In this document: one piece after another, positions 27,072 through 41,076 of the stretch | Position numbering within the stretch: position 1 is the stretch's first letter | How the letters are laid out: every line of letters begins with the position of its first letter | Made by a program: the position numbers and the translations under genes | DNA from: an uncultured Burkholderiales bacterium | Lineage (GTDB): Bacteria; Pseudomonadota; Gammaproteobacteria; Burkholderiales; Burkholderiaceae_C | Direction: 5' to 3' | Assembly: GCA_903830725.1 (NCBI GenBank) | Contig: CAIKVH010000070.1 | Location: 62,001-126,000 of the forward strand | Length of the DNA: 64,000 bases | Notes under the pieces: model-generated | The model's input: only the letters and a program-made list of their open reading frames with translations | Told to the model about the DNA's origin: nothing | The model's database searches: none

Positions 27072-27854
27072 CTATTTAGCTTTGATGAATCGGTTGCTCA
27101 GCTTACCAAGTCCCGTTATTTCGATCTCAACCAAGTCTGCGTGTTTGATGTTAGGAGAGGTTCCGTCAGTCCCCATCCACATGACATCTCCGGGGTAAAG
27201 AGTAGCGTAGCGAGATGTCCTGCTGATAAAGGTGGATATATCAAACAGCATTGCTTGGGTGTCAAACTCAATAGTCTGAATGCCGTTTACCGTGACGCGT
27301 GTTTTAGCGTCTTGAATTTTAAAATCTGTTTCAATCCAAGGACCCATGGGTTTAAAAGTATCGCTATTCTTTGAGCGAAAAAACGTTCTGTCCTCTTTTT
27401 GCCAATCACGCTCACTTATGTCGTTGCCAATGGTGTATCCAAAAACACAAGACAGTGCATCTTTCTCAGAAATATTTTTGACTTTCCTGCCTATAACAAC
27501 AACGACCTCGGCTTCATAGTGAATCTTTTCACCTGCATCGGCAGGAATAATGACATCCTCGCCGTGAGCAATTAAGGCATTAACGGCTCTGTATCCAATA
27601 TCGGCAGCGCCTGGAACAACTGGTTTTTCGCCCCTTGCCTGAGCAACCTCCATGATGTGTTTGACGTAGTTGAGTCCCGCCGCGTAAAACGTTGCAGGAA
27701 TGACAGGGACCTCAATTTTGACTTGATCTAATGCATGCTCTACTTTAAGTGGATACCACTCACCCCAGGGGACGCCTTCAATTGCATTTAGGACCTCACC
27801 ATTTAAATAACCTGTGAACGTTTTTCCTTGAACCGTGTATCGCAACCATTTCAT
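27072..27854 (-). CDS. FAH family hydrolase/isomerase
   Basis: ATG 27854 (MKWLRYTVQGKTFTGYLNGEV) overlaps the stop of the upstream LldD-like ORF; HYEAEVVVVIGRKVKNISEKDA, GNDISERDWQ. Confidence 0.9.
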   Translation of the reverse strand: MKWLRYTVQGKTFTGYLNGEVLNAIEGVPWGEWYPLKVEHALDQVKIEVPVIPATFYAAGLNYVKHIMEVAQARGEKPVVPGAADIGYRAVNALIAHGEDVIIPADAGEKIHYEAEVVVVIGRKVKNISEKDALSCVFGYTIGNDISERDWQKEDRTFFRSKNSDTFKPMGPWIETDFKIQDAKTRVTVNGIQTIEFDTQAMLFDISTFISRTSRYATLYPGDVMWMGTDGTSPNIKHADLVEIEITGLGKLSNRFIKAK

Positions 27855-29011
27855 TTTGAATGCTCGTGTTTTAAGATTAGATCTGCTGTAATTTGATTTA
27901 TTTCGGACGCCCCACATAACTGCATGGTGCGGATCAATTCTTCTTTGAGAATGTTGAGTGCATGAGATGCGCCATTTTCGCCTTGAACTACTGCTCCGAA
28001 CAGGGTAGCTCGACCGGTCATCACGCCATCAGCACCTAGTGCTATTGCCTTTAAGATGTCGCTGCCTCGTCGTATTCCCCCGTCAAGTAAAACAGGAACT
28101 TTACGGTCTACAGCTTTAACAATGTCAGGTAGTGCGCGGAGTGTTGAGATTGCTGTATCAAGTTGCCGTCCACCGTGGTTGGAGACAACAATAGCGTCGC
28201 ACCCCATCTCAACTAAGCGCAGTGCATCTTCAGGGTGCATTACGCCTTTAATGATTAGCTTTTTATGCCAATAGTCTCTAATACGCTTTAAATCATCCCA
28301 ATTAAATGAAGGGTCATAATTACGACCAACAGACGAGGCAAGGTTGTTGATGCCTCGCTTTTGTCCATCAAGCCCCAGCATATTTTCTAGGACGGGAATA
28401 CCGTTTGCAAGCATCTGACTTAGCCAAAGGGGATGAGACATGAAATCAAAAGCAACCCTGGGGTTGAGTTTGAAAGGGATAGCGAATTGGTTTTTATTAT
28501 CGCGTTCACGCTTTCCGCCTACGGGCAGGTCAACAGTGATCATCAGTCCCTCGTACTCTGCAGCGTGAGCACGGTCAATGAGAGAGTAAAAGAAATCTTT
28601 GTTTTTTAAAATGTATGCTTGAAACCAATGTCGACCTGGAGCCTGTCTTGCAATTTGCTCGATCGATGTGGTTGCAGAGCTGGATAAAGTGTAAATCAAA
28701 TCTCTATCAGCTGCCGCTCTAGCCAGCGCAATATCCGCTCCGTGTTTGCCAAATCCGAGTGCGCCGGTTGGAGCGATTGCAAGGGGCAAGCTACATCTAT
28801 GACCTAGGATATCTGCGCTTGTATCAATGGACTCAACACCCCTCAGGATCCGGGGCAACAGTAAAGTGTTATGAAAGCTCTGTCGATTTGCCTTTAAAGT
28901 GATTTCATCCTCAGCCCCTCCGTCAAAGAAATCAAAAATACAGCGGGGAAGTTTTTGTTTTGCTGCTAGACGTAGATCTTCTATGGATACGGCGTGTAAG
29001 GGGGAGCTCAT
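27851..29011 (-). CDS. FMN-dependent alpha-hydroxy acid dehydrogenase/oxidase (LldD-like, cytosolic)
   Basis: FDFFDGGAEDEITLKANR, LAIAPTG, VSNHGGRQLDTA, DGGIRRGSDILKA. Confidence 0.93.
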   Translation of the reverse strand: MSSPLHAVSIEDLRLAAKQKLPRCIFDFFDGGAEDEITLKANRQSFHNTLLLPRILRGVESIDTSADILGHRCSLPLAIAPTGALGFGKHGADIALARAAADRDLIYTLSSSATTSIEQIARQAPGRHWFQAYILKNKDFFYSLIDRAHAAEYEGLMITVDLPVGGKRERDNKNQFAIPFKLNPRVAFDFMSHPLWLSQMLANGIPVLENMLGLDGQKRGINNLASSVGRNYDPSFNWDDLKRIRDYWHKKLIIKGVMHPEDALRLVEMGCDAIVVSNHGGRQLDTAISTLRALPDIVKAVDRKVPVLLDGGIRRGSDILKAIALGADGVMTGRATLFGAVVQGENGASHALNILKEELIRTMQLCGASEINQITADLILKHEHSK

Positions 29012-29051
29012 GAGTGCCTAATCAATGGGGAAAGATGGGGAGGAAAGCAAG

Positions 29052-29104
29052 GAAAGAAAACTAAAGTAAAGAAAAGTAAAGAAAAGAAAAGAAAAGAAAA
29101 GAAA
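29052..29104. repeat. GAAAA-type pentanucleotide microsatellite
   Basis: (GAAAA)4 at 29081-29100 preceded by degenerate GAAAA/GTAAA/TAAAG copies; lies between the Bug stop and the LldD-like start. Confidence 0.85.
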
Positions 29105-30151
29105 TTAATTCAGATCGGCTTTTACCCCAGCAGATTTGATGACGTTTTCCCATCTCTCATAATCGCGCTTTAGAAAGGCTTGGAACTCTGCAGGTTTATC
29201 ACCCACCACGACTGCCCCCAGTTTCTCTAATTGCGCATGTACGTCTGGTTTTGCCAATGCTTTATTCATGGCGCTGTATAGCTTGTCAACAATGACTGTG
29301 GGTGTCTTTGCAGGCGCGAGCATGCCCACCCAAGGTGCAGTTTCTTCAAAACCAGGGAAACCAATTTCTGACATCGTTGGTTTATCTCCAAACTGGGGAA
29401 GACGTTTCGCCGTTCCAACAGCCAATATATTTACTCGCTTTGCAGCAACGTTATCAGCAATACCAATGATTGGATAAAACATAAAGTCAACCCGTCCTGC
29501 CATCACCTCTAAAAGTGCTGGCCCGTTTCCTTTGTAGGGAATATGCAGCATTTTTTGTTTAATCAGCGTGGCGAGTAACTCTGCCGATAAATGTCCAGAA
29601 CCACCACTCCCAGAAGATGCAAAGCTTACGGCCTCTGGCTTGGACTTAGCCTGGTTTAATAAGTCTTGGATGCTATGAAATGGGGAGTTGTAAGCAGTAA
29701 CGGCAACCAAGGGCAGGTTGGCTGCATTGGATATTGGCGCAAAATCTGTTTTGGGGTTGTAACCAGCGGCATCCCCAAGCAAAATGGGATTAACGTTCAT
29801 CCCGAGCGATGAGAAAAGTAGTGTGTAACCATCTGGTGGCGAATTCCTGACTTCGCGTGTTGCGATCATCGCGCTCGCCCCAGCCTTGTTCTCCACGACA
29901 ACCGGTTGCCCTAAGGTGTCGGACATATCCTTAGCAAGGACCCGGGCAATAACGTCAGTTGGCCCACCTGCAGCAAATCCCACGACTAATCTTATAGGGC
30001 GGTTAGGGTAGTTATCGTTTGCACTGGCGAGTTTGGGCAAATAAATTCCAGCGCATAGTGAGATAAAGATTAAAGAATTAAATGATCTTTTTAATTCTTT
30101 AATGCAGATTTCTTTAAAGAACTGTAGGTTAAGGTACGCCAGTGCAATCAT
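29105..30151 (-). CDS. Bug/TctC-family tripartite tricarboxylate transporter substrate-binding protein
   Basis: YPNRPIRLVVGFAAGGPTDVIARVLAKDMSDTLGQPVVVENKAGAS; likely ATG 30151 rather than track start 30253. Confidence 0.9.
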   Translation of the reverse strand: MIALAYLNLQFFKEICIKELKRSFNSLIFISLCAGIYLPKLASANDNYPNRPIRLVVGFAAGGPTDVIARVLAKDMSDTLGQPVVVENKAGASAMIATREVRNSPPDGYTLLFSSLGMNVNPILLGDAAGYNPKTDFAPISNAANLPLVAVTAYNSPFHSIQDLLNQAKSKPEAVSFASSGSGGSGHLSAELLATLIKQKMLHIPYKGNGPALLEVMAGRVDFMFYPIIGIADNVAAKRVNILAVGTAKRLPQFGDKPTMSEIGFPGFEETAPWVGMLAPAKTPTVIVDKLYSAMNKALAKPDVHAQLEKLGAVVVGDKPAEFQAFLKRDYERWENVIKSAGVKADLN

Positions 30152-30195
30152 GATGAGCTCAATAAGAATTGTTGAATAGATTTGACAAGTAACCC

Positions 30196-31089
30196 CTAGG
30201 CTTTCATAGCCAAGGTGCCGCGAGGGAAATAACGATCCGCCATGACTTGACAACGCATGATATGTCTGTGCTCATCGGCTTTATAGTCAGCGACAGCGTT
30301 ATGTAACGTGCTGATGTTGTCCCACATTAAAACATCCCCCACGCGCCACCTGTGTTCATACTGGAATTCTGGTCTGAGTTGGAGTTCAAATAGGGTCTGA
30401 AGGATACGTTCGCTCTCGGCTTCATCTAATTCGTTAATGCGGATTGCATAACCAGGGTTGGCATAAAGAACGGTATCGCCGGTAATGGGGTGCTTCAAGA
30501 AAATGGGGTGACTGACGGGAGGTTTTGCTGCGCGCTGTGAAGGTGTTAGTTCTGCTCTAAGGCTACCAGGGCGTTTCCTCATGTTGTCCCAGAATTTAGC
30601 AAAATCGTGAGTAACTGTCATGCCCTTCAATCGTTCCTTCAAATCAATCGGAATGGCAGCATAGGCTTTTCTGGTACTACAAAAAGCAGTGTTGCCTAGC
30701 GGTTTACCATCTCGGTATGGAATTTCGATTCCATACAAAACGTTAGAAAAAGCTATATCTTTGCTGTAGGACATATCGGTATGCCAGTCTTGTCCAGCAT
30801 CCTTAAAGCCAATAGGCTCACCCTTTTCGTCCACTTTGTTCGACAAAATCATCACCTCAGGGTGCAAGGTATCTTGGAACATGTTAGCGACATTAATTTC
30901 TAGTGTTCCAAATCGCTGCGAAAATTCTTTTAACTGGGTTGAGTTCAGCCGTTGAGCCGGGAAGCACAGAACACTGTGTGTACCAAGAGCTATTTCGAGT
31001 TGCGAATACTCATCCTCGTCTAAAGGTTTGGATAAATCTAAGTTGAGTACCTGAGCGCCTATTCCACCGCTGTTAATGTTAATGTTCAT
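30196..31089 (-). CDS. TauD/TfdA-family Fe(II)/2-oxoglutarate dioxygenase
   Basis: DAGQDWHTDMSYSKDIAF (HxD), RWRVGDVLMWDNISTLHNAVADY; start ATG 31089. Confidence 0.9.
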   Translation of the reverse strand: MNININSGGIGAQVLNLDLSKPLDEDEYSQLEIALGTHSVLCFPAQRLNSTQLKEFSQRFGTLEINVANMFQDTLHPEVMILSNKVDEKGEPIGFKDAGQDWHTDMSYSKDIAFSNVLYGIEIPYRDGKPLGNTAFCSTRKAYAAIPIDLKERLKGMTVTHDFAKFWDNMRKRPGSLRAELTPSQRAAKPPVSHPIFLKHPITGDTVLYANPGYAIRINELDEAESERILQTLFELQLRPEFQYEHRWRVGDVLMWDNISTLHNAVADYKADEHRHIMRCQVMADRYFPRGTLAMKA

Positions 31090-31099
31090 AACTAAACTC

Positions 31100-31705
31100 T
31101 TATGCAGGTAATGTCCATTCTTTAGCAACTGATGTACGTTTGCTGATGACTTCAAACCAACCCTTTAATTTGGGATGAGATTTACGCCATTCCAGGTGAT
31201 CAAAGCGAAGGTCCAAATAGGCAAGCGAGCAAGCTAGCGTGATTTGACCAATATGAAAGGAGTCGTTATGGACGCTAGATTCGAACTGTTTAAGAGCAGA
31301 ATGTATTTTTTCGATTTGACCATTGACCCAATCGTTCCAGCATAACTCTTTAGGACGCAAAAAGGTTTCATATCTTGTCAAAAGCGCTGCATCCAATAGC
31401 CCGTCCCCGAGAGCTTGCATTGTGATTGCCTCCCATCGAAGCGATTTATCCGTTGGGAATAGCTGTCCAGATCCGAGTTCATTGAGATACTCACAAATAA
31501 CCCGACTGTCATATAGGGCGACTCCCTCCTTGGTCAGAAGGGTCGGAACTTTACCCAAGGGATTTTTCTCTACTATTGTCTTATCCCTATCTACCGGACT
31601 CGCCTTTGCAGGCAAGAGTTCAATGTGCTCAGATAATCCAAGTTCGTGTGCACAAATCATAACTTTACGAACATAAGGGGAGGTCGGAGAGAAGAATAAT
31701 TTCAT
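31100..31705 (-). CDS. Glutathione S-transferase family protein
   Basis: MKLFFSPTSPYVRKVMICAHELGL, NPLGKVPTL, LYDSRVICEYL. Confidence 0.92.
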   Translation of the reverse strand: MKLFFSPTSPYVRKVMICAHELGLSEHIELLPAKASPVDRDKTIVEKNPLGKVPTLLTKEGVALYDSRVICEYLNELGSGQLFPTDKSLRWEAITMQALGDGLLDAALLTRYETFLRPKELCWNDWVNGQIEKIHSALKQFESSVHNDSFHIGQITLACSLAYLDLRFDHLEWRKSHPKLKGWFEVISKRTSVAKEWTLPA

Positions 31706-31903
31706 AGTAATTTTTTAAATTAATTTTTATTTTTTGGATTTAAGTAAGGTTTTAATTATCCTTCCTTTTGGAACATGTAATTTGACAAAATGCGGTCTCA
31801 AACCATGAAATCAGGGTATGTGCTAATGTCCCCTAGAACATCATAAAATATCTATACGACCTCATATTGAATACCTTTATTCTTAAATTTAATTACTTTT
31901 TAT

Positions 31904-33001
31904 ATGCGCACCATTTTTAAAAGACATCTCCAGCAATTTGCCTACTCATTGAGCGTGATTTTTACTCTCTCATTTCCCCCTTCTCTTTACGCTCAAAAAT
32001 ACTCTGAGCCAGTCAGGGGGGTATGGACTCTGAAGAACTTTAAATTTCATACTGGAGATGTCTTGCCAGAGCTAAAAATTGGGTACATCACAATTGGGGA
32101 CCCGAAGGGTATACCCGTTGTGCTTTTACACGGCACAACCTCTTCAAGTCAGTCGATATTGAGTCCAGATTTCGGAGGCGAACTCTTCGGCCCTGGCCAA
32201 CCTCTTGACGCGAGTAAATACTTCATCATCCTGCCTGATTCAATTGCTTCTGGACGCTCTAGTAAGCCCTCCGATGGACTTCGCATGAAGTTCCCTCGTT
32301 ATGACTATTTAGACGTAGTGCACGCTCACTATCAAATGATTCACGACGGTTTTGGAGTGCAGCACCTCAGGCTTGTAATGGGCAACTCGATGGGAGGGAT
32401 GCAAACATGGCTTTGGGGAACTGAGTATCCACAATATATGGACGTTTTGGTCCCCATGGCTTCTATGCCCATAGAAATATCAGGCCGCAATTGGATGCTT
32501 AGGAGACTTTTGAGCGATGCCATTAGAAATGATCCCGATTGGCACCAAGGGGAGTACACGCAACAGCCCCAGGGAGTCAGGCGCGCGTCCATTTTCTTTG
32601 CCGTAGCAAGCAACGGCGGCGCTCAGGCTATCCAAGCTAAGGCACCGACTCGCGAGAAAGGCGACGCGCTGTTGGAGAAGATGGCGCAAGATTGGAATGA
32701 AGGGGACGCTAACGACTTGCTCTACAAATGGGAGTCTTCTGAGGACTTTAATCCTTCAAAGGATTTAGAAAAAATTAAAGCAAAAGTGCTCGCTATCAAC
32801 TCCGCAGATGATGAACGAAATCCACCACAACTCGGTGTAATGGAGCGGGAGCTTAAAAGAATTCCAAATGCGCAGTATTACCTTATTCCTGCGAGCGAGA
32901 AAACAATCGGTCACAGTACGGTTGGCCTAGCCAGACTTTGGAAGTCAAAATTAGACGAAATTCTTACGACTACTCCTAAAACGGAAGTTCCCCAAAGGTG
33001 A
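31904..33001 (+). CDS. Exported MetX-like alpha/beta hydrolase
   Basis: Signal peptide then LKIGYITIGDPKG.PVVLLHGTTSSSQS, MGNSMGGMQTWLWG; homoserine acetyltransferase-like fold. Confidence 0.82.
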   Translation: MRTIFKRHLQQFAYSLSVIFTLSFPPSLYAQKYSEPVRGVWTLKNFKFHTGDVLPELKIGYITIGDPKGIPVVLLHGTTSSSQSILSPDFGGELFGPGQPLDASKYFIILPDSIASGRSSKPSDGLRMKFPRYDYLDVVHAHYQMIHDGFGVQHLRLVMGNSMGGMQTWLWGTEYPQYMDVLVPMASMPIEISGRNWMLRRLLSDAIRNDPDWHQGEYTQQPQGVRRASIFFAVASNGGAQAIQAKAPTREKGDALLEKMAQDWNEGDANDLLYKWESSEDFNPSKDLEKIKAKVLAINSADDERNPPQLGVMERELKRIPNAQYYLIPASEKTIGHSTVGLARLWKSKLDEILTTTPKTEVPQR

Positions 33002-34278
33002 TTGACTTTCAAATTGACGGACTACGACCGCTCATCGGTATGGGTTGCATTTTATTCGCCTCGTTTCTCGCGTCTGAGAATAAATCGGCTATTTCAGGTC
33101 GTAATTTATTGAAAGGCCTCTTGTTTCAATTTCTTCTGGCGCTTGTTTTACTGAAGGTTAGTTTATTTCAAAACATTTTTGTATTCTTGAATCAAGGCGT
33201 CTTAGCCGTCCAAGGCGCTACTCGAGCAGGGACTTCGCTTGTCTTTGGATATTTAGGGGGTGCTCCGACTCCCTTCGAGGTCACTGCCCCTGAGCATATG
33301 TTTATCCTCGGCATTCAAGCGCTACCCATGATATTGGTGTTCAGTGCACTGTCCGCTGTTCTGTATTATTGGCAGATTTTGCCAAAAATAGTGGGCCTAT
33401 TTGCGTGGATACTTGGACGCCTCTTTAAGATCGGTGGCGCTTGCAGTTTCGCAACTATTGCGACGGTTTTTGTCGGGATGGTGGAGGCCCCGCTGCTTAT
33501 CAACCCATACATAAGGAGCTTAACGCGTTCTGAGCTGCTAATTGTGATGAGCTCAGGAATGGCAACCCTATCAGGGACCGTTTTGGTTTTGTATGCCAGC
33601 TTTTTGCAAAATATTGTGCCTGCTGCGATAGGACATTTATTGGTAGGCTCCATCGTGAGTGCCCCGGTCTCTGTCATGTTGAGTCTAATGGTGGTTCCAC
33701 TGGTTCAAAATCCTCATGATTTAGACCCCAAATCAATTAAGTTGCAATTGCATTACAACGGTTTAATGGATGCCATCAGCTCCGGTACCCTTCAGGGCTT
33801 GAAGCTTTTATCCAATGTACTTGCCATGCTAATTGTTTTGATCGCTTTGGTTGCACTTGCCAATAGTTTTTTAACTTTGCTTCCCAACTGGAATGATGCT
33901 CCTATTTCTTTGCAGCGCATAGCAGGTATAGTCATGCAGCCCCTTGCTTGGAGCATAGGAATTGATTGGGTAGACACGCAAGCTGCGGGGCAGCTCTTAG
34001 GCACAAAACTAGTGCTCAACGAGTTCATAGCCTATCTTGACTTTAGTCGTCTTCCTCTGGATGCAATGAGCGATAAAAGCCGAGTGCTGATGACCTATCT
34101 TTTATGCGGTTTTGCAAATTTTGGAAGTCTAGGGATCGTGATTGCTGGGGTTGGTGCAATGGCCCCCTCTAGACGTGATGAAATTATCGAACTAGGGGGA
34201 CGGGCTTTGCTAGTAGGTACCTTGTCTACCTGCTTATCTTCTGCAGATGCTGCACTGATACTGTTTGGTTTTAATTAA
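32998..34278 (+). CDS. Concentrative nucleoside transporter (NupC/CNT)-like membrane protein
   Basis: FQFLLALVLLKV, GMVEAPLLINPYI, MATLSGTVLVLYASFL, AAGQLLGTKLVLNEFIAYLDF; GTG start overlapping the upstream stop. Confidence 0.85.
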   Translation: MIDFQIDGLRPLIGMGCILFASFLASENKSAISGRNLLKGLLFQFLLALVLLKVSLFQNIFVFLNQGVLAVQGATRAGTSLVFGYLGGAPTPFEVTAPEHMFILGIQALPMILVFSALSAVLYYWQILPKIVGLFAWILGRLFKIGGACSFATIATVFVGMVEAPLLINPYIRSLTRSELLIVMSSGMATLSGTVLVLYASFLQNIVPAAIGHLLVGSIVSAPVSVMLSLMVVPLVQNPHDLDPKSIKLQLHYNGLMDAISSGTLQGLKLLSNVLAMLIVLIALVALANSFLTLLPNWNDAPISLQRIAGIVMQPLAWSIGIDWVDTQAAGQLLGTKLVLNEFIAYLDFSRLPLDAMSDKSRVLMTYLLCGFANFGSLGIVIAGVGAMAPSRRDEIIELGGRALLVGTLSTCLSSADAALILFGFN

Positions 34279-34306
34279 TTCCCTCAGACTCCTGGGGACT
34301 GAAGGG

Positions 34307-35581
34307 TTAACCTTTGAATACCATCTCGGGGCGAATATCAGCAATGGACGCAGTGCCCATTTGTTTCATAGTCCCAGAGAGTTCCTCCTCCAGTAAAGCC
34401 AGGACTCGCTCAACCCCTGGTTGACCAAAAGCGCCTAGACCCCATAAGTAGGGACGGCCAACGCAGACAGCGTTAGCCCCAAGGGCAAGCGCCTTAAATA
34501 TGTCTGATCCCCTTCTAACTCCGCTGTCAAAGAGAATTGGAATTCTTTTTTTGATAGCTTTTGTTACCTCAGGCAAGCACTCAATTGCACCGCGTCCAGT
34601 ATCCTCGCTCCTACCTCCGTGGTTGGACACATGGACTCCGTCCACACCGTATTTGATACAAAGTAAAGCATCTTCCTCTGTAAGGACACCTTTAAGAATG
34701 ATTTTCATCTTTGTTGTGTCGCGCATGTGTTTTACAAACTCCCAGGTCATGTTTGCTGACTGTGAGCTCTTCACCCCACTCAGGTCGATGCCGTCGTAGT
34801 TAGGTCGTTCCTTCAGACTTCCGGGGCCATCGATATGGCAGGACGAACAGACCCTGGGATCCATACGTTTAAGCCTTTGGAAAGTCTCTTGGTTGCGACC
34901 GCCATTTCGGTCTATCGTGACTTCAAGCACCGGGCAACCCGCGCGTTCTACTCGTCGCACAACCTGCTTTGCTACATCTAGGCTAGAGGTTGCATAAAGT
35001 TGAAACCATGCCTCCCCGCCTCTTGCGGCTATAACGTCCTCGATGGTGGAGGCCCCTGCAGCTGACAGGATATTAAGGTGACCCCTTACTTTGGCAGCTC
35101 GGGCAACCGCTACTTCACCTTCGGGGTCATAAGCCTTATTGCCACCAGTAGGTGCTAGTATGATAGGCGTGCGCCATTTTGTGCCAAATAAGTTAATGGA
35201 CATATCGATGTTGGATACATCCCGCAACCGTCTAGGGCGAAGGGGAAATTTTTGAAATGAAGATCTGTTGGCTCTTAGGGTAACCTCATCATCTACGCCA
35301 GATGCCATGTAACCAAAATGGGCGTGAGGGACATTTTTAAAAGCCACCGGTTCAAAGTCAAATACATTCACTGCATCTTTAGGGTTTGTGATCAAGTCAT
35401 TGGGGAGTTCAGCAGGCCAGACGGCGGGGTCGGCGCGCTTTATAAAACTCTGTGCATTGGCATATCCAGCAGGAGTGAGGGAGAGAAGGGGGCTTGCACT
35501 TAGCCACTTGATGAAATGGCGTCGATCGTCATTCTTCGATGCATCTGGATCGGTATGTGAATTAGCGCTCATAAGTGACAT
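34307..35581 (-). CDS. FMN-dependent alpha-hydroxy acid oxidase with twin-arginine-like signal and CSSCH motif
   Basis: NDDRRHFIKWLSASPLLSLTPAGYANAQ; ILAPTGG, VSNHGGRSEDTG, DSGVRRGSDIFKALALGA; CSSCH encoded at 34835-34849. Confidence 0.9.
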   Translation of the reverse strand: MSLMSANSHTDPDASKNDDRRHFIKWLSASPLLSLTPAGYANAQSFIKRADPAVWPAELPNDLITNPKDAVNVFDFEPVAFKNVPHAHFGYMASGVDDEVTLRANRSSFQKFPLRPRRLRDVSNIDMSINLFGTKWRTPIILAPTGGNKAYDPEGEVAVARAAKVRGHLNILSAAGASTIEDVIAARGGEAWFQLYATSSLDVAKQVVRRVERAGCPVLEVTIDRNGGRNQETFQRLKRMDPRVCSSCHIDGPGSLKERPNYDGIDLSGVKSSQSANMTWEFVKHMRDTTKMKIILKGVLTEEDALLCIKYGVDGVHVSNHGGRSEDTGRGAIECLPEVTKAIKKRIPILFDSGVRRGSDIFKALALGANAVCVGRPYLWGLGAFGQPGVERVLALLEEELSGTMKQMGTASIADIRPEMVFKG

Positions 35582-35760
35582 CCTTCGGCTTGTGATTTAA
35601 AAGATAATGAAACAGTTCTTTAATGCTCAAAATAGATTGCAATGGTCCATAATAGTGTCCATTACAAAGGTAACAGATTTTGGAAATTCATCTATTATCG
35701 AAAACACCATATTTACACGGCACAAAGAGAATTTTTTTCGAATTTAATATTTTTTAGAAA

Positions 35761-37620
35761 TTGATTTTAGAAACTCACCTTAAGCTAGCTCTGGCACTTT
35801 ATGCCAGCTCAGATCTAGAGCAAAGTAAGAAAATTTTCACGGAAATCATTCTTATTGATCCCGAAAATTTAGATGCGCTAATCCATTTGGGTCGTATTGC
35901 AGCCAGAAACAAATCCCTACCTGAGGCATGCCATTGGCTAAGCCAAGCAGCGACCTTACCGGGTGTTGATGCGCAAGTGCATTTTGAACTTGGGTGCTTT
36001 CTTGAATTACAAGCTAAGACAAAGCAAGACTTAGAGTTAGCACTTCAGAGCTATAACTGTGCAACTGAGCTAGACATGAATCATCATGCAGCTTTCTTTA
36101 ATAAGGCTAATGTTCATAAACGTTTAGGTGAAATAGAAAAAGCTCTACATGCTTATAACGCTGCAATTTTGATTAATGCTTTTGATCCGTATTATTTAAA
36201 CAACCGAGGAGATTTATTGCTAAATTTGAGAAGTCTGCCGTTTGCACTTCAAGATTTTCAAAAAGCAATTGAATTGGAGCCCAGTATTTCCTACTTTCAC
36301 GATAACCGAGGAAATGCATTGAAGGAATTAAAGCAGTATGAAGATTCTGCTTTATCATTTAAAAGATCACTAGCTATAGATCCAGAAAATGCCTTCACTT
36401 ACAATAATTTTGGAAGTCTTTTTTTAGATCGTGAAATTTGGGATAAAGCGCTTGCTTGTTTTGAGATGGCGCTTCGGATTGATCCTGCATTTTTTTACGC
36501 ATACTACAACAAAGGACTTCTTTATCAAAAGTTTAACCTCTTAGATCAAGCACTAGTCAGTTACGAAAAAGCGTTACTCATCAATCCTTTTTCATTTGAC
36601 GTGAGTTGGAATATATCTATTATTCAACTCTTACAGGGGGATTTGAAAAGAGGCTTGATCGGGTATGAAGAGCGCATGCGCCTGCCTGAGAGCCGAGTGT
36701 ATTTGCCTAAAACAAGAAAAACTTATCTAAAACAAGGTTTGGAGTTCGAGCGGTTATTTGTTTGGAATGAACACGGGTTGGGCAACGAAATATTTTTTGC
36801 AAATTTCTTAAGACATCCTTCTCTGGCCTCTAAGAAAATCATCGCCAAATTTGATGTAAGACTACTTGGGTTGCTACGTCATTCATTTCAATCAAATACA
36901 AACATACGATTCATAACGGATACTGAGGAAATAAGTGAGGACCAGTATGATGCTCACATTGGAATGGCTAGTCTTCCCCGCTACCTTGGCGTTGAAGTGA
37001 ATCAAGCGCATGTCTGGGGGGCGCCATATCTCAGTTTGCCTGTGCAGTGGCACGAAGAGACAATAAAATTACGACTCGCGCAGGCTCAAGCACAGTCACA
37101 GTCACAGTCACAGGGTTCCATCGCCGAAGTTAAGAAGTTAGTGGTGGGTATTTCATGGAAAAGCGTTAATCAAAAGACGGGAGCTAGACGCTCAATTGCA
37201 CTGGAGCAGTTACTAACGGTTTTTAATGATCTGCCCATTCAGTTGATAAATTTGCAATACGGGGACGTAAGTCAAGAGATCCAAGAAGCTGTTGCTAACC
37301 AAATATCCAAGCCACAACCACACATCCTGCAATTTGAAGAGATCGATAACTTTTCAGATATAAGTGGTCTTGCCGAACTTGTTAAAAGCTGTGATTTAGT
37401 AATTAGTGTTGATAATTCGACTCTTCATCTTGCAAGTGCCTTTGGCAAGCCAACTCTGGCTCTCATATCTTTCGTGCCCGACTGGCGTTGGTTTTTGGAG
37501 CGTATTGATAGTCCTTGGTACAGGAACACCAAACTTTATCGCCAATTGAAATCGGGAAGTTGGTCGAAACCGTTAGAATTACTCAGAGCCGACTTGGAGC
37601 GCGTTGTTTCAACCCTTTGA
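35761..37620 (+). CDS. Tetratricopeptide-repeat protein with glycosyltransferase-like C-terminal region
   Basis: Multiple TPRs (e.g. YYLNNRGDLLLNLRSLPFALQDFQKAIELEP); C-terminal LVGISWKS..., LVISVDNSTLHLASAFGKPTLAL (heptosyltransferase-like). TTG start assumed. Confidence 0.82.
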   Translation: MILETHLKLALALYASSDLEQSKKIFTEIILIDPENLDALIHLGRIAARNKSLPEACHWLSQAATLPGVDAQVHFELGCFLELQAKTKQDLELALQSYNCATELDMNHHAAFFNKANVHKRLGEIEKALHAYNAAILINAFDPYYLNNRGDLLLNLRSLPFALQDFQKAIELEPSISYFHDNRGNALKELKQYEDSALSFKRSLAIDPENAFTYNNFGSLFLDREIWDKALACFEMALRIDPAFFYAYYNKGLLYQKFNLLDQALVSYEKALLINPFSFDVSWNISIIQLLQGDLKRGLIGYEERMRLPESRVYLPKTRKTYLKQGLEFERLFVWNEHGLGNEIFFANFLRHPSLASKKIIAKFDVRLLGLLRHSFQSNTNIRFITDTEEISEDQYDAHIGMASLPRYLGVEVNQAHVWGAPYLSLPVQWHEETIKLRLAQAQAQSQSQSQGSIAEVKKLVVGISWKSVNQKTGARRSIALEQLLTVFNDLPIQLINLQYGDVSQEIQEAVANQISKPQPHILQFEEIDNFSDISGLAELVKSCDLVISVDNSTLHLASAFGKPTLALISFVPDWRWFLERIDSPWYRNTKLYRQLKSGSWSKPLELLRADLERVVSTL

Positions 37621-37697
37621 GGGGCATTGGTTGTTTTAGAATAACCAGTGAAGCCTTTCAATGAACAAGTTTAGTTTTTATGAATTGAGTTTGAAAT

Positions 37698-38324
37698 ATG
37701 ACAATACAGTTATTTGCATTTGACACCCCAAACGGACGAAAAATCTCTATTGCGCTGGAGGAGATGGGTCTAGATTACACTGCGCATATTGTTGATATTA
37801 CAAAAGACGATCAATTCAAACCTGATTTTTTAGCCATCAGCCCCAACAACAAAATTCCCGCCATCATTGATTCTGAGGGGCCAGAGGGGAAACCCGTCTC
37901 CGTATTTGAGTCTGGGGCAATTTTGATTTACCTGGCCGAGAAAACGGGTAAGTTTATGCCCGCTATGTCAAACCAACGCGTAGCCGTTCTCGAATGGCTG
38001 ATGTTTCAAATGGGAGGTTTTGGTCCAGCACCCGGGCAAGTTCATCATTTTATTGGTTTAGAGAACAAGGAGGATCAACGCTACGGATTAAACCGATTTA
38101 TGACAGAGACGAAGCGTTTATACAAAGTCATGAATCAAAGACTTGCGGATCGGGCTTATTTTGCAGATGAATTATCGATCGCTGACTTTGCAATACTAGG
38201 TTGGGTTTGGAGGCACCCCAGGCACCAAATCGATTTAGACGATTATCCTAATGTGAAGCGTTGGTACGAAATGATGATGGCACGCCCTGGGGTTGAGCGA
38301 GGTTTTGCTGTTAAATTGCGTTAA
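37698..38324 (+). CDS. Glutathione S-transferase (YfcG/YghU-like)
   Basis: TPNGRKISIALEEMGLDYTAHIVDITKDDQFKPDFLAISPNNKIPAIID. Confidence 0.93.
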   Translation: MTIQLFAFDTPNGRKISIALEEMGLDYTAHIVDITKDDQFKPDFLAISPNNKIPAIIDSEGPEGKPVSVFESGAILIYLAEKTGKFMPAMSNQRVAVLEWLMFQMGGFGPAPGQVHHFIGLENKEDQRYGLNRFMTETKRLYKVMNQRLADRAYFADELSIADFAILGWVWRHPRHQIDLDDYPNVKRWYEMMMARPGVERGFAVKLR

Positions 38325-38355
38325 TGAATGTGGACTTTGCGTTCACAGCTAAGTT

Positions 38356-38850
38356 TTAGTTACGTATGCATCTGCCCTCAGCGATCGTGAAATATTTTTC
38401 CCGCTGAGTCTCAATAGTTGAAGTTCTAGTCATTGCTCCAGTATTTAAATCTATTTCTAAATTTGCGGTTCTGATTTCTCTGTGAGTTTCTCCTCCTCCT
38501 AGATTTCTAATGAACTGTGCGTACATAGTAGATGATAGATTTTCATCCGTAATTGCTACGGAAGTTCTTAATAGATTGTTATTTAAATTAGAGTAATTAG
38601 AGGTTTGACCATCTATTGTGTCTTGTATTACCTCTTTTGAAACTGTTTTCCCATTAACGGTTGTTTTAATGACTTGCGGCTTGTTTTTTTCATATTCAAG
38701 AATTTCAGTGTAAGAATCATTTCCAGCAAATTTCACTTTGTTACGGTAGGACTCATAGTGACTAACACATTTGAGTGACTCTGCGATTGTATTGGGTAGC
38801 CAGCAAAAGCAAATTCCTAGTATTAGCCAAATTTTATAATTTGCGATCAA
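38356..38850 (-). CDS. Secreted protein of unknown function
   Basis: 164 aa with N-terminal signal-like hydrophobic segment. Confidence 0.5.
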   Translation of the reverse strand: MIANYKIWLILGICFCWLPNTIAESLKCVSHYESYRNKVKFAGNDSYTEILEYEKNKPQVIKTTVNGKTVSKEVIQDTIDGQTSNYSNLNNNLLRTSVAITDENLSSTMYAQFIRNLGGGETHREIRTANLEIDLNTGAMTRTSTIETQREKYFTIAEGRCIRN

Positions 38851-38902
38851 TGCTGTTTCCCTTTTCTTGTTTACTCATTTTCGAAATTTAAGGCCAAACT
38901 AT

Positions 38903-39967
38903 TTAATCTGAAGAAATGTTAGCCTGTTTAATTAAGGATTGATATCTTGCAAGTTGGGCTTTTAGCATAATAGCCAACTCTCCCGAATTAACCCCACGAG
39001 GTGTTAAACCTTGAGCAATCAGTTGGTCGATCACCGCTTTATCTTTTAATGCTTTATTTATTTCGTTGTCTAGAATTTTTATAGCATTTTTGGGCATGCC
39101 GCTTGGTGCCATTAAGGCGAACCAAGAGTTGAACTCAAAACCGCTTAGTCCTGATTCTGAAACAGTAGGGATATCTGCAAACTGGGGCAGACGGGTTGGA
39201 GTTGAGACAGCGATGATGCGCAATTTTCCGGCCTTGGCAAGCGCTGTGACTGTTGCCAGTCCTATGAAAGCTGCATCCACTTCAGAGGCCGCAACTGCAA
39301 CTGCTGCCTGTGTGGCGCCTTTATAGGGGACATGCATCATGGATATTTTTGCTTGGTTGGCAAAAAGCTCCATAGATATATGTTGTGGACTACCGTTTCC
39401 CCCCGAAGAAAATGTTAAGGGTGTAGCGTTGCGCTTAGCCTTAGCAATTAAATCAGCAGCATTTTTAATGCTTGATTCAAATGGAACAACCAAACCCCAT
39501 TCGACAGTTGCAACTAAAGAGACGGGATCAAAGTCTCGCAGAATATCCCAAGGCATTTTGGACTGTAAGTTAGGGAGAACAGTCATGATGCTGTCGTTAA
39601 ATCCTCCCAATGTATATCCATCGGGAGCTGATTTGGCTACGTGATCCGCGCCAATCAATCCAGCTGCGCCGGGTTGGTTGTCAATTGCAATCCCCATCCC
39701 TAGGCTCGTGGAAACTTTTTGCATAACGATTCGGGCAGCACTATCAACTGCGCTCCCAGCGGCAAGCGGTATGATGAGTTTGATTGGCTTATTGGGATAG
39801 TCTTTGGTTGAAATATCTTTTAGGGAAACATCTTTTGTTGAAACATCCTTGGCTGGCAAGTCTTTGAGATTGGAATCACTGGCCCCAATGGCATTTAGGC
39901 TCAAGCCTGTTACCGCGGCGCCAAGGGATCCTTGGATTAAGTTTCTTCTAGTGATTTTGTTTAGCAT
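38903..39967 (-). CDS. Bug/TctC-family substrate-binding protein with Tat-like signal
   Basis: MLNKITRRNLIQGSLGAAVTGLSLNAIGA... then YPNKPIKLIIPLAAGSAVDSAARIVMQKV. Confidence 0.92.
   Translation of the reverse strand: MLNKITRRNLIQGSLGAAVTGLSLNAIGASDSNLKDLPAKDVSTKDVSLKDISTKDYPNKPIKLIIPLAAGSAVDSAARIVMQKVSTSLGMGIAIDNQPGAAGLIGADHVAKSAPDGYTLGGFNDSIMTVLPNLQSKMPWDILRDFDPVSLVATVEWGLVVPFESSIKNAADLIAKAKRNATPLTFSSGGNGSPQHISMELFANQAKISMMHVPYKGATQAAVAVAASEVDAAFIGLATVTALAKAGKLRIIAVSTPTRLPQFADIPTVSESGLSGFEFNSWFALMAPSGMPKNAIKILDNEINKALKDKAVIDQLIAQGLTPRGVNSGELAIMLKAQLARYQSLIKQANISSD
39800..39862 (-). repeat. 15-bp imperfect tandem repeat encoding (KD[VI]S[TL])3
   Basis: Minus strand AAGGATGTTTCAACA AAAGATGTTTCCCTA AAAGATATTTCAACC AAAGAC. 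Confidence 0.85.
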
Positions 39968-40023
39968 AAACTTTGGAACCTGTATGAAATGATAAATCTA
40001 TTACTTAATGAGTTGAAATTAAA

Positions 40024-41076
40024 TCAAAATAATTTTGCGATCCCAAGTTTTTCAGAAACGGTTTCTAACTGTTTTTCAAGACCATCACTAATTGGAATAC
40101 CGTTATTTGCATAGTCAACGCACTTTAATGCACTTTGCTCGCCCGGTAACCAGATGCGCTCAACGCCTGGCATCTTTTTACTGGCTTTTAATTCTCCAAT
40201 TAACTGGTCCACTCGTACTTTGAATGCTTGGGGGTCTCCAAATGCAGCTGGATCGATAATGGCGATCGCTTGGCCTGTATTTGTGACGCTTGCATCATCA
40301 TGATTGAAATCTATTACAGCGCGTCCCATTGCCGCGTTGTTAAGTGTTCCAGCTAAAATTCCGACGATCAGGGACAGACCGTAGCCTTTGTAACCACCTA
40401 TGGGAAGTAGGAATCCCTCCTCACTGCGTTTGGGATCTAGCAGTGGCTGTCCGTTAAAGTCGATCATCCATCCTTCAGGCATCATCTCACCCTTTTGGGC
40501 CTTAGCTTTTACTTTTCCGTAGGCTGCCACTGTGGTTGCCATATCCAGAACAATCGGCGTTTCTTTATGCGTCGGAACCGCTACAGAAATGGGGTTTGTA
40601 GATAAGAGCATATCTAGTCCGCCCCAAGCGGGTAAGTGATTAGCATTGCCGACGGCAAAATACAAGCCAACCATATCGTGTTCCAATGCCATGCGGCTAT
40701 AAAGTGATGCTGGGCCCGCATGGTTACTTAAGCGGGAACCAACCCAAGCCATTCCAGATTGTTTGGCTTTCTTGATTGCGAGTTCGGTTGCGTACTTCAT
40801 AACGACGTGTCCCATGCCGTTATCACCATTCACTAAAGCAGTCGCAGCCCGCTCAGACTCGATTGTGATGCTAGGTTGGGTATTTACGCCACCTGCCAAA
40901 ATGCGTCTTGTGTACTGGGGTAAACGAATTACACCGTGACCATCAGAGCCTTGAAGATCAGCACTGGCCATATATTCGGCAACAGTTGCAGCGTGATCCT
41001 GGGGGAGTTTGAGTGCCAACATAGCAGACTGAATGTAGCTTTTTAAATGGGAATAAGAAACGCGTTTACTTGACAT
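40024..41076 (-). CDS. Malate/L-lactate/ureidoglycolate dehydrogenase family (Ldh2)
   Basis: ADLQGSDGHGVIRLPQYTRRILAGGVN, SNHAGPASLYSRMAL, GGYKGYGLSLIVGIL. Confidence 0.92.
   Translation of the reverse strand: MSSKRVSYSHLKSYIQSAMLALKLPQDHAATVAEYMASADLQGSDGHGVIRLPQYTRRILAGGVNTQPSITIESERAATALVNGDNGMGHVVMKYATELAIKKAKQSGMAWVGSRLSNHAGPASLYSRMALEHDMVGLYFAVGNANHLPAWGGLDMLLSTNPISVAVPTHKETPIVLDMATTVAAYGKVKAKAQKGEMMPEGWMIDFNGQPLLDPKRSEEGFLLPIGGYKGYGLSLIVGILAGTLNNAAMGRAVIDFNHDDASVTNTGQAIAIIDPAAFGDPQAFKVRVDQLIGELKASKKMPGVERIWLPGEQSALKCVDYANNGIPISDGLEKQLETVSEKLGIAKLF

Follow-up and report, generated by a model that had tools for sequence, protein, structure and literature searches.

A probable periplasmic, cytochrome c-reducing 2-hydroxyacid dehydrogenase with a predicted heme c site on its active-site lid loop

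The window, by which we mean the whole 64-kb stretch of DNA analysed, encodes a member of the FMN_dh family (P0001) that is probably a periplasmic 2-hydroxyacid dehydrogenase that reduces cytochrome c and carries a c-type heme on its lid loop. The preliminary description of the gene had proposed an exported flavo-heme enzyme, and this proposal is supported, by inference, by the invariance of a CXXCH motif and of a twin arginine among orthologues, by a single origin of the motif, by a clade-specific histidine (His88), by cytochrome c genes near some copies, and by genes for TatC and CcmE in every carrier genome tested.

Results

P0001 is an FMN_dh enzyme outside the named equivalogs

The features of the window that bear on this enzyme are as follows.

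34307–35581, minus strand: Tat-signal FMN-dependent 2-hydroxyacid dehydrogenase with CXXCH (P0001, 424 aa), assigned from the open reading frame, the Pfam FMN_dh match and the barrel of the model
35453–35581, minus strand: predicted Tat signal peptide (residues 1–43) with an RRHFIK core and a predicted ANA/Q cleavage site, from sequence and from RR in 21/21 orthologues
35519–35524, minus strand: twin-arginine codons (residues 20–21), invariant in 21/21
35318–35320, minus strand: His88, candidate second heme ligand, kept throughout the CXXCH clade and missing from every other aligned family member
34745–34909, minus strand: loop 4 (beta4–alpha4 active-site lid, residues 225–279), which bears the clade-specific motif, from the secondary structure of the model
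34835–34849, minus strand: CSSCH (residues 245–249), putative heme c attachment site, with CXXCH in 21/21 orthologues and in 0 of the other relatives checked
27851–29011, minus strand: signal-less LldD-type paralogue without CXXCH (P0002), FMN_dh E 3.6e-132

Both the DNA and its translation bear out the earlier account of an open reading frame at 34307–35581 with a Tat-type signal and a CSSCH sequence; the frame begins with ATG and runs for 424 codons with no internal stop. Pfam FMN_dh matches residues 81–421 (E 5.4e-111). When P0001 is scored against the curated NCBIfam models that represent L-lactate oxidase, LldD, and PRK11197, the three scores are 190 bits (cut-off 550), 228 bits (cut-off 645.5), and 218 bits (cut-off 376), so that it is not called as an equivalog by any of them; scores this far under the cut-offs place P0001 in the FMN_dh superfamily and outside those named equivalogs. 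Pfam searches found neither a cytochrome b5 domain nor a cytochrome c domain in P0001, including the sequence around CXXCH. The AlphaFold model is a barrel that is mostly confident (pLDDT mostly 80–97 outside loops), and Foldseek searches with this model return glycolate oxidases as the top matches (TM 0.84–0.88, normalised to the target).

The catalytic residues Tyr196, Asp224, Lys297, His321, and Arg324 are identical in all 14 clade members compared, and Tyr91, the counterpart of the active-site residue Tyr143 of flavocytochrome b2, is kept in 13 of the 14. At the position of the family's mobile second active-site arginine (Arg164 in glycolate oxidase and Arg289 in flavocytochrome b2), as counted from the catalytic Asp, most clade members have Gln or Thr, and Arg229 lies two residues earlier. 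The barrel that had been called canonical is therefore so with respect to the five catalytic residues and not with respect to the mobile arginine. At 34889–34909 of the window (residues 225–231; DRNGGRNQ) the second active-site arginine appears to have been shifted or replaced, and at locus L046 an arginine is present at the usual position and Arg229 is absent. Because the catalytic residues are kept and the mobile arginine appears altered, we expect P0001 to oxidise 2-hydroxyacids and its lid region to be somewhat changed.

P0001 carries a predicted Tat signal

What had been described as a twin-arginine-like signal turns out to be a textbook Tat motif. The N-terminus has DDRRHFIK at residues 18–25, a hydrophobic stretch from Trp26, and ANAQ at residues 41–44, and so presents the RR-x-F/L sequence, the hydrophobic stretch, and the AxA end of Tat substrates (as RRHFIK and ANA/Q); in the alignment of the CXXCH clade the twin arginine is retained by every one of the 21 orthologues. 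These sequence features suggest that P0001 is exported via Tat. Genes for TatC and CcmE were found in the genome from which the window comes and in all 11 of the other carrier genomes tested, although this is a necessary but weak test because both proteins are widespread in Proteobacteria. The System II heme maturation protein ResB was sought in the window's own genome and not found there, and the System I protein CcmE was found.

The CXXCH motif lies in loop 4 and is conserved across two bacterial classes

In the model, a strand at residues 218–222 (beta 4) and a helix at residues 280–289 (alpha 4) flank the CXXCH motif, and the variable loop region to which CSSCH had been assigned is thus, by the topology of the model, loop 4, the mobile lid of the barrel. 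Residues 226–261 have pLDDT values below 50, and the placement of the motif relative to FMN is accordingly known by topology only. In the FMN_dh family, loop 4 is a flexible element with a part in catalysis (PMC10153336). Among open reading frames of at least 120 aa in the window, none besides P0001 contains CXXCH.

The preliminary description had made its reading depend on whether CXXCH is conserved in orthologues, and alignment revealed that the motif is kept in 21 of 21 distinct orthologues from two bacterial classes (one Burkholderiales genus together with several Alphaproteobacteria families), the lowest pairwise identity being 44%. All of the orthologues from the same genus (67–88% identity) have the motif, and a profile search of Proteobacteria extended the set to several Alphaproteobacteria families with orthologues at 43–48% identity; one of these orthologues also occurs in a named record, Methylobacterium bullatum NZ_LR743510. 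Each of the 21 combines CXXCH with an export signal, the latter being predicted. A chance CXXCH is ruled out by this retention. The XX pair varies within the clade (SS, SA, VS, ST, TD, SD, SG, NL, KD, KG, KM, and AG), and such free variation at both X positions is what heme c sites allow.

The CXXCH clade is rare, being represented, at a strict cut-off, in 6 of 399 genomes sampled across the phylum and, within a single alphaproteobacterial order, in 12 of 348 genomes. A scan of the 399 genomes with a degenerate DNA motif pattern returned the window's own copy and three matches outside the family; the pattern is too strict for Alphaproteobacteria, most of which read D-T-R and not D-P-R.

A second histidine is specific to the CXXCH clade

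The residues that never vary in the clade and are rarely or never seen outside it include Ala87-His88-x-Gly90, Asp241, Cys245, Cys248, and His249. Among Cys, His, and Met residues, invariance across the clade is confined to His88, Cys245, Cys248, His249, the catalytic His321, and Met405, which leaves His88 and Met405 as the only spare invariant His or Met residues that could act as a second axial ligand of a heme. His88 is positioned three residues N-terminal of the active-site Tyr91, and this position together with its invariance makes it the natural candidate; His88 is possibly the distal heme ligand.

The same invariant residues lend themselves to two readings that involve no heme. Those specific to the clade are precisely two Cys and two His, the catalytic His not among them, which would form a Cys2His2 set, and the motif has no cytochrome c domain around it, so that Cys245, Cys248, His249, and His88 might bind a metal such as zinc and thereby pin the lid loop onto the N-terminal helix of a Tat-exported hydroxyacid oxidase or dehydrogenase. 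We regard such a metal site as unlikely, as adjacent Cys and His ligands on one metal are uncommon, as a C-X-X-C-H spacing that is kept exactly while the X residues vary freely is the signature of heme c, and as the predicted destination of the enzyme is the compartment in which Ccm acts, all carriers tested having CcmE. The cysteines of exported CXXC pairs often form disulfides, and topology puts this pair in the lid that covers the flavin; Cys245 and Cys248 might then form a periplasmic disulfide that is structural, or that relays electrons from FMN in the manner of Erv/ALR-type thiol oxidases with His249 aiding the chemistry. That the pair forms such a disulfide in place of a heme site seems to us decidedly unlikely, since His249 is as invariant as both cysteines and a second histidine appears together with the motif, and a disulfide needs neither.

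The motif appears to have arisen once, in a lineage with Tat-type signals

In a maximum-likelihood tree of 27 sequences, one branch separates all of the CXXCH members from the rest (support 100/98). The closest relatives outside the clade, at loci L042 and L047 (39–44% identity), have Tat-like signals and lack CXXCH, and the motif was found in none of the remaining relatives outside the clade that were checked. The tree and the signals indicate that CXXCH arose once, inside a lineage that already had a Tat signal. Because the L042 and L047 proteins have RR signals, export probably preceded the gain of CXXCH. These two Tat-signal FMN_dh proteins without CXXCH (L042:5791–6993 and L047:1489–2694) constitute the sister group of the clade, and their existence means that predicted-exported FMN_dh members are a broader set than the CXXCH clade.

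Cytochrome c genes lie near the CXXCH gene in three lineages

In Methylobacterium (L038/L027) the gene next to the CXXCH gene encodes a cytochrome c (Pfam Cytochrom_C E 1.9e-10); a cytochrome c gene also lies close to the enzyme gene in L037 and a few genes off in L045, making three lineages with such a gene nearby. Also near the L045 enzyme, at L045:1–2219, a small gene resembling cytochrome c comes after one for a partial 629-aa protein that bears CXXCH. No cytochrome c gene adjoins P0001 in the window, and the same is true of most other copies. This absence is in keeping with the possibility that P0001 is a periplasmic oxygen-using 2-hydroxyacid oxidase, or a dehydrogenase that delivers electrons to quinone or to a separate cytochrome c, in which CXXCH serves packing or docking and holds no cofactor. 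Among flavin amine oxidoreductases, the Tat enzymes tested that have no CytC gene beside them are mostly periplasmic oxidases (PMC12224317), and a contribution of loop 4 to catalysis within the FMN_dh family would agree with a role of this kind (PMC10153336). Nonetheless we find a motif without a cofactor quite unlikely, as packing leaves the fixed Cys, Cys, and His across two classes unexplained in a loop in which only 11 of 52 columns of the clade alignment are invariant.

The signal-less paralogue to which the preliminary description had pointed at 27851–29011 is indeed an FMN_dh protein and is about 36% identical to P0001. It belongs to a stretch of the window (27072–41076) that is conserved in the genus and that comprises genes for an FAA hydrolase, the LldD paralogue, a TctC receptor, a TauD dioxygenase, a GST, an alpha/beta hydrolase, a nucleoside transporter, P0001, a TPR protein, a second GST, a second TctC receptor, and an Ldh_2 dehydrogenase. 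This stretch looks like an organic-acid catabolic island, and the neighbourhood fits organic-acid catabolism while naming no substrate beyond some 2-hydroxyacid. The TPR gene (35761–37620), whose product has a weak C-terminal match to glycosyltransferase family 9, is divergent from the enzyme gene and is kept beside it in the genus. At L043:4484–5710 and L044:4051–5286 an LldD-family gene that encodes no signal is arranged head to head with the CXXCH gene; this layout differs from that of the window, and the pairing with a paralogue recurs.

Discussion

We favour, with moderate confidence, a flavo-heme enzyme as the best explanation of these sequence data, one that would be exported by Tat, would receive heme c from Ccm on its loop, and would provide a path from FMN to cytochrome c. 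In the mechanism we propose, the enzyme would fold around FMN in the cytoplasm and be carried out by Tat as a folded flavoprotein, whereupon Ccm would attach a single c-type heme at Cys245 and Cys248 on the flexible loop 4, with His249 as the proximal ligand and His88 possibly as the distal one. The heme on the lid would then take electrons singly from reduced FMN and deliver them to a soluble cytochrome c in the periplasm, and not to oxygen or quinone. Tat exports folded proteins and Ccm normally acts on unfolded apocytochromes; attachment would therefore have to occur on the flexible loop after export. We give an even chance to the full form of this idea, namely that the lid has been turned into a one-heme cytochrome by CXXCH and His88, with no cytochrome fold and with heme added after folded export, so as to wire FMN to periplasmic cytochrome c. 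Counting against the heme reading are that a protein folded before Tat export is an unusual client for Ccm, that the motif lies outside any cytochrome c fold, and that most copies, including that of the window, have no adjoining cytochrome c gene.

The heme-bearing precedent within the FMN_dh family is flavocytochrome b2 (PMC8491902); the passages of this survey that we consulted mention heme domains of the cytochrome b5 type and variants with a long loop 4, and do not mention c-type heme. In the literature searched, which had the scope of one library, no LldD/FMN_dh family member with a c-type heme is described. Flavocytochrome b2 (L-lactate:cytochrome c oxidoreductase, EC 1.1.2.3) resembles P0001 in its FMN_dh barrel and catalytic residues, in a site outside the cytosol or matrix, and in the order FMN to heme to cytochrome c that we propose for P0001, but holds a non-covalent heme b in a separate cytochrome b5 domain at its N-terminus, whereas P0001 lacks that domain and has a putative heme c on loop 4. 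Glycolate oxidase, L-lactate oxidase, and LldD share the barrel fold, about 30–40% identity, and the catalytic residues with P0001, and lack both the Tat signal and the CXXCH that P0001 has. (S)-mandelate dehydrogenase and lactate monooxygenase with long loop 4 are alike in that a functional addition to loop 4 alters the enzyme (membrane docking or product handling), although there the loop forms either a membrane segment or a folded lid of some length and in P0001 it bears CXXCH. Outside the family, Tat flavoenzymes that reduce periplasmic CytC, including predicted Tat flavoenzyme–CytC fusions, are known in an unrelated FAD superfamily (PMC12224317). The flavin amine dehydrogenases NicA2/Pnao-CycN of that superfamily share with P0001 a Tat signal and a cytochrome c acceptor (proposed in the case of P0001), and differ in that their heme resides in a full cytochrome c domain or a separate protein.

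If our reading is correct, P0001 and its relatives would be a natural test case of Ccm heme attachment to a protein that Tat exports in folded form, and would offer a compact direct-electron-transfer hydroxyacid dehydrogenase useful for electrodes and biosensors. Proteins annotated as alpha-hydroxy acid oxidases that have both a Tat signal and CXXCH would then probably not be oxygen-using oxidases, and the FMN_dh family would have reached cytochrome c a second time, by way of a heme site on the lid loop and not by fusion to cytochrome b5.
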